DNA of 22,543 nt from a virus. The stretch spans positions 1-22,543 of the IMG/VR virus record IMGVR_UViG_3300020445_000085, one strand, 5' to 3'. The notes beneath the pieces were generated by a model. That model did no database searches. It worked only from the letters and a program-made list of their open reading frames with translations, and was not told where the DNA came from. Both the position numbers and the translations under genes were made by a program. Below, one piece after another: positions 9,646 through 16,365 of this stretch. Numbering within the stretch: position 1 is the stretch's first letter; every line of letters starts with the position of its first letter.

Positions 9646-11199
9646 ATGGTACAACTACTTGGATTTGAAATAACAAGAAAAAATAATGATCTGGAGAAGC
9701 CAGCGAAGTCTAAACAGGCTTTCACTATACCTTCTCCAGATGACGGTACAACAACTATATCTGCTGGCGGTTACTTTGGCCAATACTTGGATATGGAAGT
9801 TACTGCCAAAAATGATTTTGATTTAATTAAGAGATATCGTGAAGTTGCCCAGCATCCAGAATGCGATATGGCAGTTGAGGACATAATCAATGAGGTTATT
9901 GTTTCAAACGATAGAGACCAATCAGTTTCATTATCATTAGATAAACTTGCTATTTCAGAAAATATTAAACAAAAAATTAGAACAGAATTTGATGAGGTGT
10001 TAAGTCTTTTAAACTTTGAAGAAAAAGGACATGACATCTTTAAAAGATGGTACATTGACGGTAGGATTTACTTTCATAAGGTAATTGATCCTAATAGTCC
10101 TAGAAAAGGTATATCGGAATTAAGATATATTGATCCACGAAAAATTAGAAAAGTTCGTGAGATAAAAAAATCTAGGGATATGAAAAGTAAAGGTATTGAA
10201 ATGGTTGAACAAACAGCAGAATGGTTTGTTTATAATGAAAGAGGAATACAAGCAGGAAATACAAATGCTGGTATAAAAATTGCCTCCGATTCAATTTGCT
10301 TTATAACTTCTGGTGTTGTAGATCAAACTAGAAATATGGTTATGGGACATTTGCATAAGGCAATTAAACCTGTCAATCAATTAAGAATGATTGAGGACGC
10401 TGTTGTTATTTACAGAATAGTAAGAGCGCCTGAAAGACGAGTTTTTTATGTTGATGTTGGTAACTTACCAAAAATGAAAGCGGAATCTTATCTTCGTGAT
10501 GTAATGGCAAGATATAGAAACAAACTTGTTTATGACGCTTCAACTGGTGAGATTAGGGATGACAGAAAACATATGTCAATGCTTGAAGACTTTTGGTTAC
10601 CTCGTAGAGAAGGTGCAAAAGGAACTGAAGTATCTACTTTACCAGGTGGACAAAATCTTGGTGAAATATCAGATGTTCAATACTTTCAAAAGAAATTATA
10701 CAAAGCATTGAATGTACCGATTTCAAGAATGGAATCAGAATCTGGTTTCAATCTTGGTAAGGCTGCTGAGATTACTAGGGACGAATTGAAGTTTACTAAA
10801 TTTGTTCAAAGATTAAGAAAAAGATTTACACAAGTCTTTAATGATGTACTTAAAACACAATTAGTTTTAAAAGGTATTATTACTATTGAAGACTGGCAAA
10901 AAATTGGGCAACATATTCAATATGACTATTTAAAAGATGGATACTTTGCTGAATTAAAAGAAGCTGAAATTTTAAGAGATAGATTAAGTCTTGCTGAACA
11001 AGTTAGTCCTTATATAGGAAAATATTATTCAGTAGATTATATAAGAAAAAGAGTGCTTAGACAAAGTGATGAGGATATAGTTGATATTGATAACCAAATT
11101 GCTAAAGAAATAAAACAAGGAATTATCGCTGCTCCTGAAGGACAAGATATGCAGGCAAATGATGATAATTCTGATATAAATATAGGAGAAAATGAATAG
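9646..11199 (+). CDS. 20: Portal vertex protein gp20
   Basis: A 517-residue protein; T4 gp20 is 524. Conserved portal segments include 'YREVAQHPECDMAVEDIINE' (about residues 64-83), 'DGRIYFHKVIDPNSPRKGI', 'RYIDPRKIRKVREIKKS', 'IYRIVRAPERRVFYVDVGNL' (about 255-274) and 'FWLPRREGAKGTEVSTLPGG' (about 315-334). The last includes the loop widely used to identify T4-like phages. The dodecameric ring nucleates prohead assembly and is the docking site for terminase. AAAAAGGAAG precedes the ATG. The last 20 codons are Asn/Asp-rich and contain TATAAATA at 11175, discussed among the rejected items. Confidence 0.98.
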   Translation: MVQLLGFEITRKNNDLEKPAKSKQAFTIPSPDDGTTTISAGGYFGQYLDMEVTAKNDFDLIKRYREVAQHPECDMAVEDIINEVIVSNDRDQSVSLSLDKLAISENIKQKIRTEFDEVLSLLNFEEKGHDIFKRWYIDGRIYFHKVIDPNSPRKGISELRYIDPRKIRKVREIKKSRDMKSKGIEMVEQTAEWFVYNERGIQAGNTNAGIKIASDSICFITSGVVDQTRNMVMGHLHKAIKPVNQLRMIEDAVVIYRIVRAPERRVFYVDVGNLPKMKAESYLRDVMARYRNKLVYDASTGEIRDDRKHMSMLEDFWLPRREGAKGTEVSTLPGGQNLGEISDVQYFQKKLYKALNVPISRMESESGFNLGKAAEITRDELKFTKFVQRLRKRFTQVFNDVLKTQLVLKGIITIEDWQKIGQHIQYDYLKDGYFAELKEAEILRDRLSLAEQVSPYIGKYYSVDYIRKRVLRQSDEDIVDIDNQIAKEIKQGIIAAPEGQDMQANDDNSDINIGENE

Positions 11200-11201
11200 T
11201 T

Positions 11202-11534
11202 ATGCCAAATGATAATGTAAAAAGTATGATAGACTCACTTGCTAGTGGGGATAATGTTAAGGCTCAAGACGCATTTAAAAATGCTTTGTCTGATAAGATA
11301 GGAAGTGCCCTAGATAATAAAAGACAATCAGTAGCAACTGATTGGTTAGGTAGTGCTAAAGAATTAGAAGCAGTTAAAGACGCTTCTGGTTTAGATAAAG
11401 TATCAGGTGCTGTATCAACTCCAGTTGGAGGTGCAGAAACTATGGCTGTACAAACACCAGGACAAGAACAAGAACCTGTTGAAATAGACCAAGGTGGAGA
11501 AGAAAATGCAGAACCTGTCGTTCCAGAAGTTTAA
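11202..11534 (+). CDS. 67: Prohead core protein, gp67-like
   Basis: A 110-residue protein directly after the portal gene. Its N-terminal half ('MIDSLASGDNVKAQDAFKNA', then 'KIGSALDNKRQSVATDWLG') resembles the T4 gp67 N-terminus by length and pattern: a short helix ending in (S/N)-D/G-(N/D)-hydrophobic-A, then a second helix ending K..(A)..(F/W)L. The C-terminal half is acidic and Pro/Val/Glu-rich ('EQEPVEIDQGGEENAEPVVP'), as in gp67, whose tail is acidic and is processed. In T4, gp67 is part of the internal scaffolding core and is cut by the gp21 protease. The match is from memory of the family, so the symbol is probable rather than certain. Confidence 0.65.
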   Translation: MPNDNVKSMIDSLASGDNVKAQDAFKNALSDKIGSALDNKRQSVATDWLGSAKELEAVKDASGLDKVSGAVSTPVGGAETMAVQTPGQEQEPVEIDQGGEENAEPVVPEV

Positions 11535-11760
11535 AAAACAACTGGTAGAAAAGAAGGACGATAGTCCTAAGGAAACTGCTGAGTTTAAAAAATTATCGCC
11601 AGCTGAAAAGATGGCAGTAAAAGATATTTTCGCTATGTTAGATAATACCAAAGGTGAAATTATTAGCAAAATTGAAGGTATTATTAAAAAGGTAGCAAAA
11701 AAAAGAAATGTTAAAGTGTCAAGTATAGAAGATTATTTTGACAATGAAATATTAAATTAA
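11506..11760 (+). CDS. Small basic head-core candidate (gp68 position)
   Basis: An 84-residue Lys-rich helical protein beginning 'MQNLSFQKFKKQLVEKKDDS' and containing 'LSPAEKMAVKDIFAMLD', ending 'SIEDYFDNEILN'. It overlaps the end of the gp67-like gene by 29 nt. The ATG at 11506 is preferred over the upstream GTG at 11494 because AAGGTGGAG at 11491-11499 is a good ribosome site for 11506 and would otherwise be inside the coding region. It sits where T4 has gene 68, another prohead core protein. Composition (short, charged, helical) would suit that role, but no specific gp68 motif was recognised, so it stays a positional guess. Confidence 0.6.
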   Translation: MQNLSFQKFKKQLVEKKDDSPKETAEFKKLSPAEKMAVKDIFAMLDNTKGEIISKIEGIIKKVAKKRNVKVSSIEDYFDNEILN

Positions 11761-11770
11761 GGGATAAAAA

Positions 11771-12199
11771 ATGGCAATTGCAACAAGAACATTAAAAGAC
11801 ACAAAAATAGCAACTGGTAGTGGTGCTGCTGGTGGTAAAGTAACTGTATTAGTAAATATGAATGACAATACTACTGCTGATTCCGTTGTACTTGACGCTA
11901 GTGGATTAGCAGGACACGCTAATGGTGCTATGTTAGATATAACAAGAATATGGTGGGCATTAGTACAAGGTACTGCTGACGACAATACTGGTTGGGCTTC
12001 TATTGAATTTGTAGGCGCTTCGGCAGATACATTGGCAATCAATCTTGCAGGTACAGGACATTATGATGGTACTGCTGGTAAGATTGAAAACAATGCAACA
12101 AATACTGGTGCGACTTCAGGAGACCTAAAGTTAAATGCTTATGGTGTTTCTGGATATGTATTAATTGAATTAAGAAAAGACGAATCATTTACTGCATAG
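11771..12199 (+). CDS. Small beta protein A of a three-gene paralogue cluster (head block)
   Basis: A 142-residue protein, mostly predicted beta, with no charged helices, signal peptide or membrane segment. The diagnostic core is 'DITRIWWALVQG', 'SIEFVGAS', 'GTGHYDGTAGKIENNATNTG' and a closing 'GDLKLNAYGVSGYVLIELRK'. The same order of motifs is found in the gene at 12556 and, weakly, in the gene at 12209. It has no counterpart I recognise in T4. Lying between prohead core genes and the protease gene, it is probably a virion component such as a capsid decoration or head-fibre protein; this is inference from position and fold type. AAGGGAT precedes the ATG by about 6 nt. Confidence 0.7.
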   Translation: MAIATRTLKDTKIATGSGAAGGKVTVLVNMNDNTTADSVVLDASGLAGHANGAMLDITRIWWALVQGTADDNTGWASIEFVGASADTLAINLAGTGHYDGTAGKIENNATNTGATSGDLKLNAYGVSGYVLIELRKDESFTA

Positions 12200-12208
12200 G
12201 TCTTTCTT

Positions 12209-12556
12209 ATGACAATAACGAATACTAGTGTTGTTGACACTACTTCCAAATATATTGTTAAGTCAATAGGTATTGGAAGTGAAACTGACCAGATAATGGC
12301 AGACGCTGAGAAATTAGCGAGTGGGAATAACGAAAGTAAAATTAGTCTTATAGAATGTTTTTATGAGGTTAAAGGTACTGGAACATTAACGATTAGTGCT
12401 AGTAGTGAAACAGATGATTTAACTTTGACTGGTAGAGGTAAGTATGGATTACGACCTGACCAATTAAAGTTTGGTAATGATAAACAAATATTATTAACAA
12501 CTGACTCAAATGTAACCAGTTATTTGTTAATAACAGAATTTAGGAGAAATAATTAA
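12209..12556 (+). CDS. Small beta protein B of the paralogue cluster (most diverged)
   Basis: A 115-residue protein with alternating beta pattern. Its C-terminal two thirds can be aligned by eye with the neighbours: 'KISLIECFYEVKGTG' matches the 'ITRIWWA' strand, 'TLTGRGKYGLRPDQLKF' the 'GxGHYD' loop, and 'ILLTTDSNVTSYLLITEFRR' the final strands ending in E-x-R. It lacks the WW pair. The ribosome site is weak (AGG about 12 nt upstream of the ATG), which suggests lower or coupled expression. Its stop overlaps the ATG of the next paralogue in TAATG. Function unknown; a head-surface role is inferred from context. Confidence 0.65.
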   Translation: MTITNTSVVDTTSKYIVKSIGIGSETDQIMADAEKLASGNNESKISLIECFYEVKGTGTLTISASSETDDLTLTGRGKYGLRPDQLKFGNDKQILLTTDSNVTSYLLITEFRRNN

Positions 12557-12975
12557 TGGCTGATGTAGTTACAAGTCAAACTTTGGTAGATACAGCTGGA
12601 ACAAAAACAGTAATGAAATTTACTAATATGTGTGACGGATCAGGTGAAACGCTGGTCACTAAAATGGATGCTAGTGCATTAACATTTATGACCGAAGACG
12701 CTGCAAGAAGTATTGCAAAAATTTGGTGGGCAGTTAATACTACTAATGGTAAATCAGGTATTGAATTGTTATGGGCAGGTAGTGGAACAAGTGCTGCTAA
12801 TGCAACAATAGGTTTTTTATCTGGTAGAGGTTATCACGATTATTATACTGCTGGAAATATGATACCTAATAATGCAACATTGACAGCTAATACATCTCCT
12901 GCTGGAGATTTATTGCTTTCAACAAAAGGTTTTGTGGCTGGGGATAATTATACTATCATTATTGAAGTAAGATAA
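12556..12975 (+). CDS. Small beta protein C of the paralogue cluster
   Basis: A 139-residue protein clearly related to the gene at 11771. Shared elements in order are 'SIAKIWWAVN', 'GIELLWAGSG', 'GRGYHDYYTAGNMIPNNAT', 'PAGDLLLSTKGF' and a terminal 'YTIIIEVR'. The IWWA, H/Y-D, AG-x-I/M-x-x-NNAT and GDL-x-L positions are common to both. The N-terminal third differs. TAGGAG lies 9 nt before the ATG, inside the end of gene B, and TAATG overlaps occur at both ends, so B, C and the 57-residue gene after it are translated as a coupled set. Probably structural; no enzymatic motif is present. Confidence 0.7.
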   Translation: MADVVTSQTLVDTAGTKTVMKFTNMCDGSGETLVTKMDASALTFMTEDAARSIAKIWWAVNTTNGKSGIELLWAGSGTSAANATIGFLSGRGYHDYYTAGNMIPNNATLTANTSPAGDLLLSTKGFVAGDNYTIIIEVR

Positions 12976-13148
12976 TGCCAGACTATAATAAACAAATACT
13001 TGAAAGAATTGTCGGCACTAAAGGCAAAGGTGAATTGGCAGATAAATTTAAGTTAGCTTTTGCTGAAAAGTTTAAAATTAAACAAGAAGAAGTTAAAAAA
13101 GGAATTGTAGATAAAGTCTATAATAAAAAAGAGAAGGTGGAGAGATAA
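12975..13148 (+). CDS. Uncharacterised 57-residue basic protein just before gene 21
   Basis: A small Lys-rich ORF starting in TAATG with the preceding gene. It begins 'MPDYNKQILERIVGTKGKGE' and continues with the helical 'LADKFKLAFAEKFKIKQEEV'. Its TAA is followed immediately, in the same frame, by the ATG of gene 21, so readthrough would give a fusion. The last codons supply the AAGGTGGAG ribosome site for gene 21. The uninterrupted frame and exact junctions argue for translation. No family is recognised. A prohead core peptide is possible given size, charge and location. Confidence 0.65.
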   Translation: MPDYNKQILERIVGTKGKGELADKFKLAFAEKFKIKQEEVKKGIVDKVYNKKEKVER

Positions 13149-13796
13149 ATGAAACTAATAACAGAAACAATTGAAAACATTGAAGTCTTAACCGAAGAGA
13201 AGGCTAACGGCAAAAAAGATTATAAAATTAGAGGTGTCTTTATGCAAGCGGATATCAAAAACCGTAATGGTAGAGTTTATCCTGTACAGACTCTTGCTAA
13301 AGAAGTTAAGAGATACACTTCAGAATTTATAAACAAGAAAAGAGCTTTCGGTGAACTAGGACATCCAGATGGACCAACAGTTAACCTAGAAAGAGTTTCA
13401 CACATGATTACTAGTCTAAAACCAGAAGGTAAAAACTTCATAGGTGAGGCTAAAATAATGGATACTCCTTACGGTAAAATCGTTAAGAATTTAATTGACG
13501 AAGGTGCTCAATTAGGTGTATCATCAAGAGGTATGGGTTCTTTACAATCAGGATCAAATGGTTCTGTTGTAGGTAAAGACTTTTATCTTGCTACTGCTGC
13601 TGATATAGTTGCAGATCCGTCTGCTCCAGACGCTTTCGTTGAAGGTATAATGGAAGGTAAAGAGTGGGTATGGGACAACGGAATACTGAAAAGTATGGAA
13701 GTTGAGAAGTACAAAGAAGAAATAGAGAAGACTAGGCGTGCCGAGTTGGCTGAGAAAAAAGCGTCTATTTTTAAGAACTTTCTGACTAAAATCTAA
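13149..13796 (+). CDS. 21: Prohead core protease gp21
   Basis: A 215-residue protein; T4 gp21 is 212. Family patterns are 'RGVFMQADIKNRNGRVYP' (about residues 28-45), 'FGELGHPDGPTVNLERVSHM' (about 67-86, with candidate catalytic His 85) and 'LGVSSRGMGSL' (about 122-132, with the Ser-Ser-Arg nucleophile region). The fold is the herpesvirus-like prohead serine protease. It cleaves scaffold, core proteins and the capsid N-terminus during head maturation. The C-terminal segment (from about 185) is highly charged and is normally removed during auto-processing. It starts right after the TAA of the 57-residue gene with AAGGTGGAG upstream. Confidence 0.95.
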   Translation: MKLITETIENIEVLTEEKANGKKDYKIRGVFMQADIKNRNGRVYPVQTLAKEVKRYTSEFINKKRAFGELGHPDGPTVNLERVSHMITSLKPEGKNFIGEAKIMDTPYGKIVKNLIDEGAQLGVSSRGMGSLQSGSNGSVVGKDFYLATAADIVADPSAPDAFVEGIMEGKEWVWDNGILKSMEVEKYKEEIEKTRRAELAEKKASIFKNFLTKI

Positions 13797-13907: not shown

Positions 13908-15008
13908 ATGTCTGACATAGAAAAAGTTAATGTAGAAGAACAGAAGAATGTAGCAAATAAAGACGCTGCTCCTGCTGAAGCTCCTACACTTAAAAATGAC
14001 GCAGTTGATATGGGTCCTGCGGTTGTAAAACCAACTGATAGTAATCCAGACGCTGCTTCTAAAGCGAAACAGAATACTTCGGATCCATCAAAGAAAAATG
14101 CTAAAGATGGTTCTTTACCTAAAGATAACAAACCTGGCGCTTCAATTAAAAAAGAAGAGGTTTCAGCTGATGACAAAGATAAAAAAGACGACAAAGAAGT
14201 TAAAGCTGAAAATGACGAGAAAAAAGAAGACGAGAAGGAAGTTAAAAAAGAATCAAAAGAAGTAGAAATTGATTTATCCGATGATGTTAAAGCATTAGTT
14301 TCAAGTGACGCTGATTTATCTGAAGAATTTAAAGATAAAGCTGCAACTATTTTTGAAACTGCTGTTAAGACACGAATTAAGGAACAAACAAAAATCCTTG
14401 AGGCTCAATACGAAGAAAAACTATCATCTGAAAAAGAAACAATGAAAGAAGCTATGGTGTCAAAAGTTGACTCATACCTAAACTATGTTGTGGAAGAGTG
14501 GATGAAAGAAAATGAATTAGCGGTTGAAAGAGGAATTAGAACTGAAATCGCTGAAGACTTCATAACAGGTCTTAAAGATTTATTCAAAGAACACTACATT
14601 GATGTTCCTGAAGAAAAATATAATGTACTAGATGACTTAACAAGTCAAAATAAAAAACTTGAAGATAAACTTAACGAACAAATTGAAAAAAATGTTGAGT
14701 TAAGCAAACAAGTTTCTGACGCTGATAGAGGTTCAATCATGGCTGAAATAGCTGATGATTTAGCTGATACAGAAAAAGAAAAGTTTACTTCAATGGCTGA
14801 AAATGTTGAGTACGATAGTGCTGATAAATTTAGAGAGAAATTAGAAACTATTAAAGAATCTTATTTCCCTAAAAAGAAAATAGAAGAAAGCTCAACTAAA
14901 GATGAGGTTGATTCTGTTGCGGCTAACGCTCCAATTGAGAGCAATACCGATGCTATGGCTGCATATACAGCCGCTATAACTAAAAACATTAAATCTGTAA
15001 AGGTTTAA
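13908..15008 (+). CDS. 22: Prohead scaffold (major core) protein gp22
   Basis: A 366-residue protein; T4 gp22 is 269, so this one is about 100 longer. Residues 1-120 are a disordered Lys/Asp/Glu/Ala/Pro stretch. From about 121 ('IDLSDDVKALVSSDADLSEE') the conserved helical core begins, followed by 'KTRIKEQTKILEAQYEEKL', the 'YLNYVVEEWMKENELAVERG' segment and a coiled coil near 240-270. The C-terminus ('DAMAAYTAAITKNIKSV') is the conserved end that contacts the shell. The protein forms the internal core round which gp23 assembles and is then degraded by gp21. AAGGAGAG precedes the ATG. It sits between the protease and capsid genes as in all T4-like phages. Confidence 0.93.
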   Translation: MSDIEKVNVEEQKNVANKDAAPAEAPTLKNDAVDMGPAVVKPTDSNPDAASKAKQNTSDPSKKNAKDGSLPKDNKPGASIKKEEVSADDKDKKDDKEVKAENDEKKEDEKEVKKESKEVEIDLSDDVKALVSSDADLSEEFKDKAATIFETAVKTRIKEQTKILEAQYEEKLSSEKETMKEAMVSKVDSYLNYVVEEWMKENELAVERGIRTEIAEDFITGLKDLFKEHYIDVPEEKYNVLDDLTSQNKKLEDKLNEQIEKNVELSKQVSDADRGSIMAEIADDLADTEKEKFTSMAENVEYDSADKFREKLETIKESYFPKKKIEESSTKDEVDSVAANAPIESNTDAMAAYTAAITKNIKSVKV

Positions 15009-15039: not shown

Positions 15040-16365
15040 ATGTATCTTACTGAAAACTTACAATCAAAATGGCAGCCAGTATTGGAGCATCCTGATCTTC
15101 CAAAGATTGAGGACGCATACAAAAGAGCTGTAACAACAGTTATTCTTGAAAACCAAGAAAAAGCTGTTAGAGAAGACAGATCATTTATGACAGAAGCAGC
15201 ACCAGCTAACGCAACTGGTACTTCTGTTGATACTTGGGATCCTGTTTTAATCTCATTAGTACGAAGAGCTATGCCTAACCTAATTGCTTACGATATCTGT
15301 GGTGTTCAACCGATGACTGGTCCAACTGGACTTATCTTCGCTATGAAATCAAGATATGGTTCTCAAGCGGGTGCTGAGGCATTGTTTGACGAAGCTGATT
15401 CAGATTTTTCTGCTGAAGACGCTGCTTCAAATACTGGTTCGCCAGACTCACATTCAGGCACTAACCCTGCAACATTAAACGATTCACCATCTGCTGGAAC
15501 TTACACAACTGGTTCTGGTATGACTACTGCTCAGGCAGAAACATTAGGTGACGGAACTGATGAATTTGCAGAAATGGCTTTCTCAATAGATAAAGTTACG
15601 GTTACTGCTAAATCAAGAGCTCTTAAAGCTGAATACACTATGGAACTTGCACAAGACTTAAAAGCAATCCACGGTTTAGACGCTGAAACAGAACTTGCAA
15701 ATATCTTATCAAGTGAGATTCTTGCTGAGATCAATAGAGAAGTAGTTAGAACAATTTACTCACACGCTAAAGCGGGTGCACAAGTAAATACTACAACTGC
15801 TGGTATCTTTGATCTTGACACAGACTCAAATGGTAGATGGTCAGTTGAGAAATTCAAAGGACTATTATTCCAACTTGAAAGAGATGCTAATGCTATAGGT
15901 CAATTAACAAGAAGAGGAAAAGGTAATATAATTCTTTGCTCTGCTGATGTTGCTTCTGCACTTCAAATGAGTGGTGTTTTAGATTACGCTCCTGCTCTTG
16001 CGACTAACCTAAATGTAGATGACACTGGTAATACTTTCGCTGGTGTACTTAATGGTAAATTCAAAGTATATGTTGATCCATATTCTGCGAATGTATCTGC
16101 AAGTCAATTCTATGTTGTTGGTTACAAAGGAACTTCACCTTACGATTCTGGTCTGTTCTATTGTCCATATGTTCCACTACAAATGGTGAGAGCAGTTGGT
16201 CAAGACAGTTTCCAACCAAAAATTGGATTCAAGACTAGATACGGAATGGTTCAAAACCCATTTGCTACTTCAGCAGGTGCTGGTGCATTAGATAACTCTG
16301 GTGCAGTTGGTTCTACACACCAAAACTTATATTACAGACGAGTTAAAATTACTAACATTATGTAA
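15040..16365 (+). CDS. 23: Major capsid protein gp23
   Basis: A 441-residue precursor, shorter than T4 gp23 (521) and typical of marine relatives. The N-terminal 52 residues form the assembly peptide; 'RSFMTE' followed by 'AAPANATG' puts a likely gp21 cleavage after Glu 52 (hydrophobic-x-Glu). The conserved core reads 'PVLISLVRRAMPNLIAYDIC', 'GVQPMTGPTGLIFAMKSRYG', 'TAKSRALKAEYTMELAQDLK', 'AETELANILSSEILAEINRE' and, near the end, 'QPKIGFKTRYGMVQNPF'. The HK97-type fold builds the head lattice. AAGGAGAG lies 9 nt before the ATG. No gene 24 (vertex protein) follows, so gp23 may also fill the vertices, or gene 24 may lie elsewhere. Confidence 0.98.
   Translation: MYLTENLQSKWQPVLEHPDLPKIEDAYKRAVTTVILENQEKAVREDRSFMTEAAPANATGTSVDTWDPVLISLVRRAMPNLIAYDICGVQPMTGPTGLIFAMKSRYGSQAGAEALFDEADSDFSAEDAASNTGSPDSHSGTNPATLNDSPSAGTYTTGSGMTTAQAETLGDGTDEFAEMAFSIDKVTVTAKSRALKAEYTMELAQDLKAIHGLDAETELANILSSEILAEINREVVRTIYSHAKAGAQVNTTTAGIFDLDTDSNGRWSVEKFKGLLFQLERDANAIGQLTRRGKGNIILCSADVASALQMSGVLDYAPALATNLNVDDTGNTFAGVLNGKFKVYVDPYSANVSASQFYVVGYKGTSPYDSGLFYCPYVPLQMVRAVGQDSFQPKIGFKTRYGMVQNPFATSAGAGALDNSGAVGSTHQNLYYRRVKITNIM

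Follow-up and report, generated by a model that had tools for sequence, protein, structure and literature searches.

The whole stretch of DNA analysed here, a 22.5-kb viral contig (the window), carries a block of structural genes from a T4-like marine phage, a pelagiphage; the closest cultured relatives found were the Pelagibacter phages Mosig EXVC030M and HTVC008M. Portal, gp67, gp68, gp21, gp22 and gp23 are kept in T4 order, and three small genes, designated A, B and C, lie between gp68 and gp21, 2–3 kb upstream of gp23 in the same head block (Table 1). The three open reading frames were confirmed at the positions given in the initial annotation, which was also correct that T4 has nothing equivalent: T4 gene 68 runs 1 nt into gene 21. 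A fourth conserved small open reading frame, X57, had been overlooked there; it gave no family match above chance and belongs to no database family. Intergenic gaps from gp68 onwards are 10, 9, -1, -1 and 0 nt, the start of C overlapping the stop of B, and the start of X57 the stop of C, by 1 nt each. The arrangement gp20-gp67-gp68-[A-B-C]-gp21-gp22-gp23 was found in more than 100 loci. No family in Pfam, PHROGs or NCBIfam covers A, B or C.

Table 1. Features of the head-assembly block in the window
Feature	Coordinates	Strand	Basis or remark
TATAAATA, T4 late-promoter core match	11175..11182	+	27 nt before gp67; possible promoter of gp67-gp68-A-B-C-X57-gp21 unit
gp67-like prohead core protein	11202..11534	+	phrog_1064 'prohead' E 0.0011; position
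gp68-like prohead core protein	11494..11760	+	between gp67 and gp21 as in T4; conserved in slot census
Paralogue A, 142 aa, jelly-roll family, variable member	11771..12199	+	HHalign to C E 2.9e-12, to B E 7.4e-10
Paralogue B, 115 aa, predicted eight-stranded jelly-roll	12209..12556	+	AlphaFold2 pLDDT 94.1; fold matches
Paralogue C, 139 aa, predicted jelly-roll, most conserved member	12556..12975	+	AlphaFold2 pLDDT 84.6; fold matches
X57, conserved charged ORF, 57 aa, between C and gp21	12975..13148	+	in ~half of loci
gp21 head maturation protease	13149..13796	+	PF03420 E 3.3e-32; phrog_207 E 2.2e-81
gp22 scaffold	13908..15008	+	phrog_237 E 2e-88
gp23 major capsid protein	15040..16365	+	PF07068 E 1.3e-149

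The putative late promoter was examined across the locus set. Of 168 loci, 100 had TATAAATA no more than 90 nt before gp67 (85 at -24 or -27), and the 60 nt preceding A, B or C never contained it; its recurrence before gp67 could come in part from conserved portal coding sequence. Five sites were counted in the window against 4.66 expected from shuffled sequence, a total not above chance, so the promoter is proposed solely from position and recurrence. All five (327, 4143, 11175, 13844 and 16441, + strand) lie on the coding strand, several of them a short way before head or tail genes. Late transcription of A, B and C in a single head-assembly unit with gp67, gp68 and gp21 is most likely, with C probably translationally coupled to B.

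Profiles of the three proteins were compared pairwise with HHalign, and all three pairs were related beyond column-shuffled controls. Scores were 74.3 for A-C, 59.8 for A-B and 33.4 for B-C (E 4e-5; other E values in Table 1), against best scores of 28.0, 19.5 and 22.2, respectively, in 100 column shuffles each; reversed-profile controls scored 13.7–17.1. In searches of ten whole phage genomes, a combined A+C profile recovered the Mosig B gene (E 1.2e-7) in addition to A and C genes, and a B profile recovered the HTVC008M A gene (E 1.9e-5); neither profile had a match in the whole genomes of T4, four cyanophages or Melnitz. By these comparisons A, B and C are three real paralogues, with homology above both kinds of control; the B-C link taken alone is the weakest of the three and leans partly on A. 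The motifs that had been listed as common to A and C (IWWA, G-x-G-[HY]-x-D, GDL-x-L and I/L-E-x-R) are present in both, but the AG...NNAT element does not have one fixed spacing, its spacer measuring 3 residues in A but 4 in C. In B the WW pair is missing, as had been observed, and so is NNAT; among 61 B homologues, G-x-G-x-Y is kept in 57 and E-x-R in all 61. Profile comparison, tree and common predicted fold all support the duplication and divergence of one beta domain, as first proposed from these motifs.

In the tree, A, B and C formed three supported groups (supports 97/86, 99/98 and 98/96), each with members from at least two phage lineages; the C group takes in two long-branched non-T4 rows, and the long branches make the branching order among the three groups unsafe. 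Because each group spans several phage lineages, the triplication is, on the evidence of the tree, ancient. Median dN/dS over 63 distinct full-set loci was 0.21 for A, 0.20 for B and 0.11 for C, compared with 0.11 for gp21 and 0.10 for gp23. All three paralogues are thus under purifying selection; C matches gp21 and gp23 in its conservation, and A and B vary faster than C.

A census of the gp68-gp21 slot, in which some loci share one contig and the sampling follows the queries used, gave A-B-C in 107 loci, A-C in 63 (the HTVC008M type) and A alone in 4. Three further loci carry B-C plus an unrelated 82-aa protein in A's place, and in Mosig B-C is accompanied by an unrelated 78-aa protein where A would be. 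The slot holds no family member in four cyanophages and none in Melnitz, where only a different 82-aa protein occupies it (L267:4251-4499). The cyanophages and Melnitz nevertheless build heads, so the family is not a general requirement. A fixed 1:1:1 hetero-oligomer, raised as a possibility in the initial annotation, was rejected because A+C, B+C and A-only genomes exist. In the A-only phages, A is 69–70% identical to window A while the portal is only ~60% identical; in locus L171 the portal is 84% identical to that of the window and A only 61% identical. This mismatch suggests that A has been exchanged between phage lineages. The 82-aa protein in A's place (L032:5403-5651 and L183:5753-6001) belongs to a beta-type family with a weak phrog_19805 match; membership of the Mosig 78-aa protein in that family was rejected, as the sequences do not support it. 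The head block of the A-only T4-like phages has an insertion between the gp67 and gp68 positions, where two different proteins, PAAR-like by eye, were seen (L131:5446-5739 and L133:5441-5740).

Distant homologues were found in small phages of another kind: Roseobacter phage CRP-901 (tblastn E 4e-3; profile E 2.8e-5) and the spring-water phage MW202796 (tblastn E 1e-4; profile E 2.6e-11), both of which have a different major capsid protein, of the phrog_371 type. Of 135 related loci, 114 have a capsid gene of this type 0.3–1.9 kb before the homologue; the remaining 21 begin within ~1.4 kb of the homologue, so that all 114 loci long enough show it. The link to a capsid gene thus holds in unrelated capsid systems, and this neighbourhood, which is independent of T4-like gene order, is the strongest clue to function. 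Downstream of the CRP-901 and MW202796 homologues come genes with the annotation tail adaptor or tail collar fibre. Scans of contigs from bacterial and archaeal genomes detected nothing related to C or to the MW202796 homologue, and at close range the family therefore looks phage-specific. Two neighbouring genes were recorded in passing. Between the capsid gene and the homologue MW202796 encodes a 96-aa protein (L186:9697-9987) whose match (E 3.7e-19) is to the C-terminal end of phrog_24355, a family of phage polysaccharide deacetylases, and which is possibly a detached attachment domain; both non-T4 phages have, upstream of their capsid gene, one with the annotation GroES/chaperonin 10 (L003:8105-8509 and L186:6277-6612).

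Structures of B and C were modelled with AlphaFold2 from family alignments; the fold of A is taken from its homology to C. Strand order and structural matches indicate that B and C are eight-stranded jelly-rolls, and the two models share a fold: of the ten top-ranked hits that each gave in a viral structure library, nine are common to both, and these are all uncharacterised phage proteins. PDB matches of B included the STIV turret protein (Z 9.2 over 95 residues, 2.7 Å), cupins (Z ~8), endospore appendage subunits (7.7) and an HFTV1 turret chain (7.5); by Foldseek alone, cupins came first for B (E 4e-4). C matched endospore appendage subunits (Z 7.5), the KHP40 trimeric cement protein (7.5), the HFTV1 turret (6.9), the phage baseplate-cup chain 9f4b_F2 (6.8), nucleophosmin (6.6) and Pam1 capsid chain H (6.1). 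Jelly-rolls are a common fold, and all of these Z values except the STIV match and one cupin are in the range where a common arrangement matches without kinship. Besides viral turret and cement proteins, the predicted folds are similar to cupins and nucleoplasmins. Sequence searches of the PDB with the profiles gave insignificant matches only, such as antibodies.

A capsid-gene neighbourhood in two capsid systems, beta-rich and weakly charged proteins, and a likeness to turret and cement proteins make capsid decoration the simplest explanation. We consider it likely that A, B and C are small jelly-roll proteins, the products of an old triplication within one family, and that they decorate or cement the exterior of the gp23 capsid of T4-like pelagiphages. 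Decoration, already suggested in the initial annotation, is the best-supported function given the position in the head operon, the neighbouring capsid genes and the turret- and cement-like folds, although most fold matches fall below Z 8 and B is nearly as similar to cupins as to turrets; it is the virion location itself that we infer. A literature search found no virion proteomics of HTVC008M or Mosig and no capsid structure of a member.

A reading that shares this location and differs on purpose holds the proteins to be capsid-surface adhesins, turret or head-fibre subunits that bind carbohydrates of hosts or particles more than they stabilise the shell. The STIV and HFTV1 turret matches, the presence of the carbohydrate-binding modules CBM29, CBM16 and CBM22 among the structure matches of C, the faster variation of A and B relative to C and the seeming exchange of A between lineages are all in its favour, but such modules have a generic sandwich fold and the conservation of C is too high for a typical receptor binder, so that we regard it as unlikely.

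The placement of the genes among those of the prohead core, between gp68 and the protease gp21, makes an internal or core role possible, either as part of the prohead core or as packaged internal proteins. Charged residues, however, make up 15–23% of A, B and C against 40% of gp68 and 41% of gp22, and the three are all-beta by prediction, unlike scaffold proteins. [LI]xE, which we take to be the gp21 cleavage motif, was found only inside predicted strands (at B residue 47 and towards the C-termini) and not near the N-termini, and the homologues adjoin the capsid gene also in phages of another capsid type. A protein of the T4 prohead core type, a charged scaffold with gp21 cleavage sites near its ends, was accordingly rejected for A, B and C, and an internal location in general appears improbable. 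Residence in the head-tail vertex, the neck or the tail fibres instead of the icosahedral shell is suggested by the tail adaptor or tail collar fibre genes that follow the CRP-901 and MW202796 homologues and by the match of C to the baseplate-cup chain, yet the T4-like relatives keep the genes in the head block away from neck and tail genes, the non-T4 homologues lie between capsid gene and adaptor, and loss of one or two paralogues is tolerated; this placement we rate as quite improbable. Non-virion proteins, such as cupin-type enzymes or assembly chaperones, are very improbable in spite of the Foldseek ranking of cupins for B, and cupin enzyme function was rejected as unlikely: cupin enzymes require a metal-binding histidine cluster, but histidine is absent from 46 of 61 B homologues and averages fewer than one residue in C of the window group.

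If the proteins do decorate the head, small oligomers of A, B and C would probably bind the gp23 shell after expansion, as trimers at three-fold positions or as rings on hexamers, adding stability and an outer surface and perhaps standing in for Hoc and conceivably for gp24. Contact with the capsid would fall to C, the constant member, and A and B would lie further out as variable members, subject to loss, swapping or exchange in individual lineages. More speculatively, and with considerable doubt, the T4-type head may bear a modular three-part jelly-roll coat, with C as a constant base and A and B as outer proteins traded among marine phage lineages, derived from a decoration family common to unrelated small phages.

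Decoration and cement proteins with beta-sandwich folds are already known (PMC9698820, PMC12494034). A, B and C appear to be an unrecorded family among them, whose job is probably an ordinary one, coating the outside of the virus shell; what is unusual is the old triplication and the modular loss. The family provides a link between head genes in T4-like phages and in unrelated small phages of marine and fresh waters. Pelagiphages infect SAR11, the bacteria that dominate the surface ocean and are the most abundant in the sea, and their accessory head proteins are unannotated. Two cultured phages, HTVC008M and Mosig, supply testable candidate virion proteins, and a surface role, if true, would show how T4-like phages with a single gp23-family gene and no Hoc coat their shells.

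In T4-like capsids the accessory outer-head proteins known from T4 are Hoc, Soc and gp24, which are different genes from A, B and C. The lack of Hoc and gp24 remarked on in the initial annotation for the window extends to the complete genomes of related phages, T4 being positive for both: a search with T4 Hoc of T4, HTVC008M, Mosig and Melnitz recovered only T4 Hoc itself, and genes of the Gp23 family (PF07068) number one each in HTVC008M, Mosig, Melnitz and P-SSM2 against two in T4. A, B and C have no Pfam match to PF07068 and so are not of the gp24/gp23 type. Direct homologues in the same head-block slot, all annotated as hypothetical, are HTVC008M gp086 (to A, E 6e-6) and gp087 (47% identical to C) and Mosig genes 40 (to B, E 1e-7) and 39 (59% identical to C), HTVC008M lacking B and Mosig lacking A.

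Among characterised virion proteins, HFTV1 turret chain 8QPG_TD is, like B and C by prediction, a single small jelly-roll domain and is located on the surface of the virion head, with 15% identity and Z values in the chance-arrangement range, so that no sequence homology is claimed. At 114 residues it is most likely the turret base protein gp30; the small turret base protein of HFTV1 forms a hexamer on each capsid hexamer (PMC12494034). The trimeric cement proteins of KHP40/KHP30 and Pam1 are small beta-sandwiches on an HK97-type shell, those of KHP30 and Pam1 sitting as trimers at three-fold and quasi-three-fold sites (PMC9698820). They have no detectable sequence relation to A, B or C, and one cement protein is described per phage, in contrast to the three paralogues found here. 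The STIV turret protein (4IND, 3J31) has a jelly-roll domain like B; STIV is an archaeal non-tailed virus, and its turret is a triple jelly-roll of which only one domain matches B.
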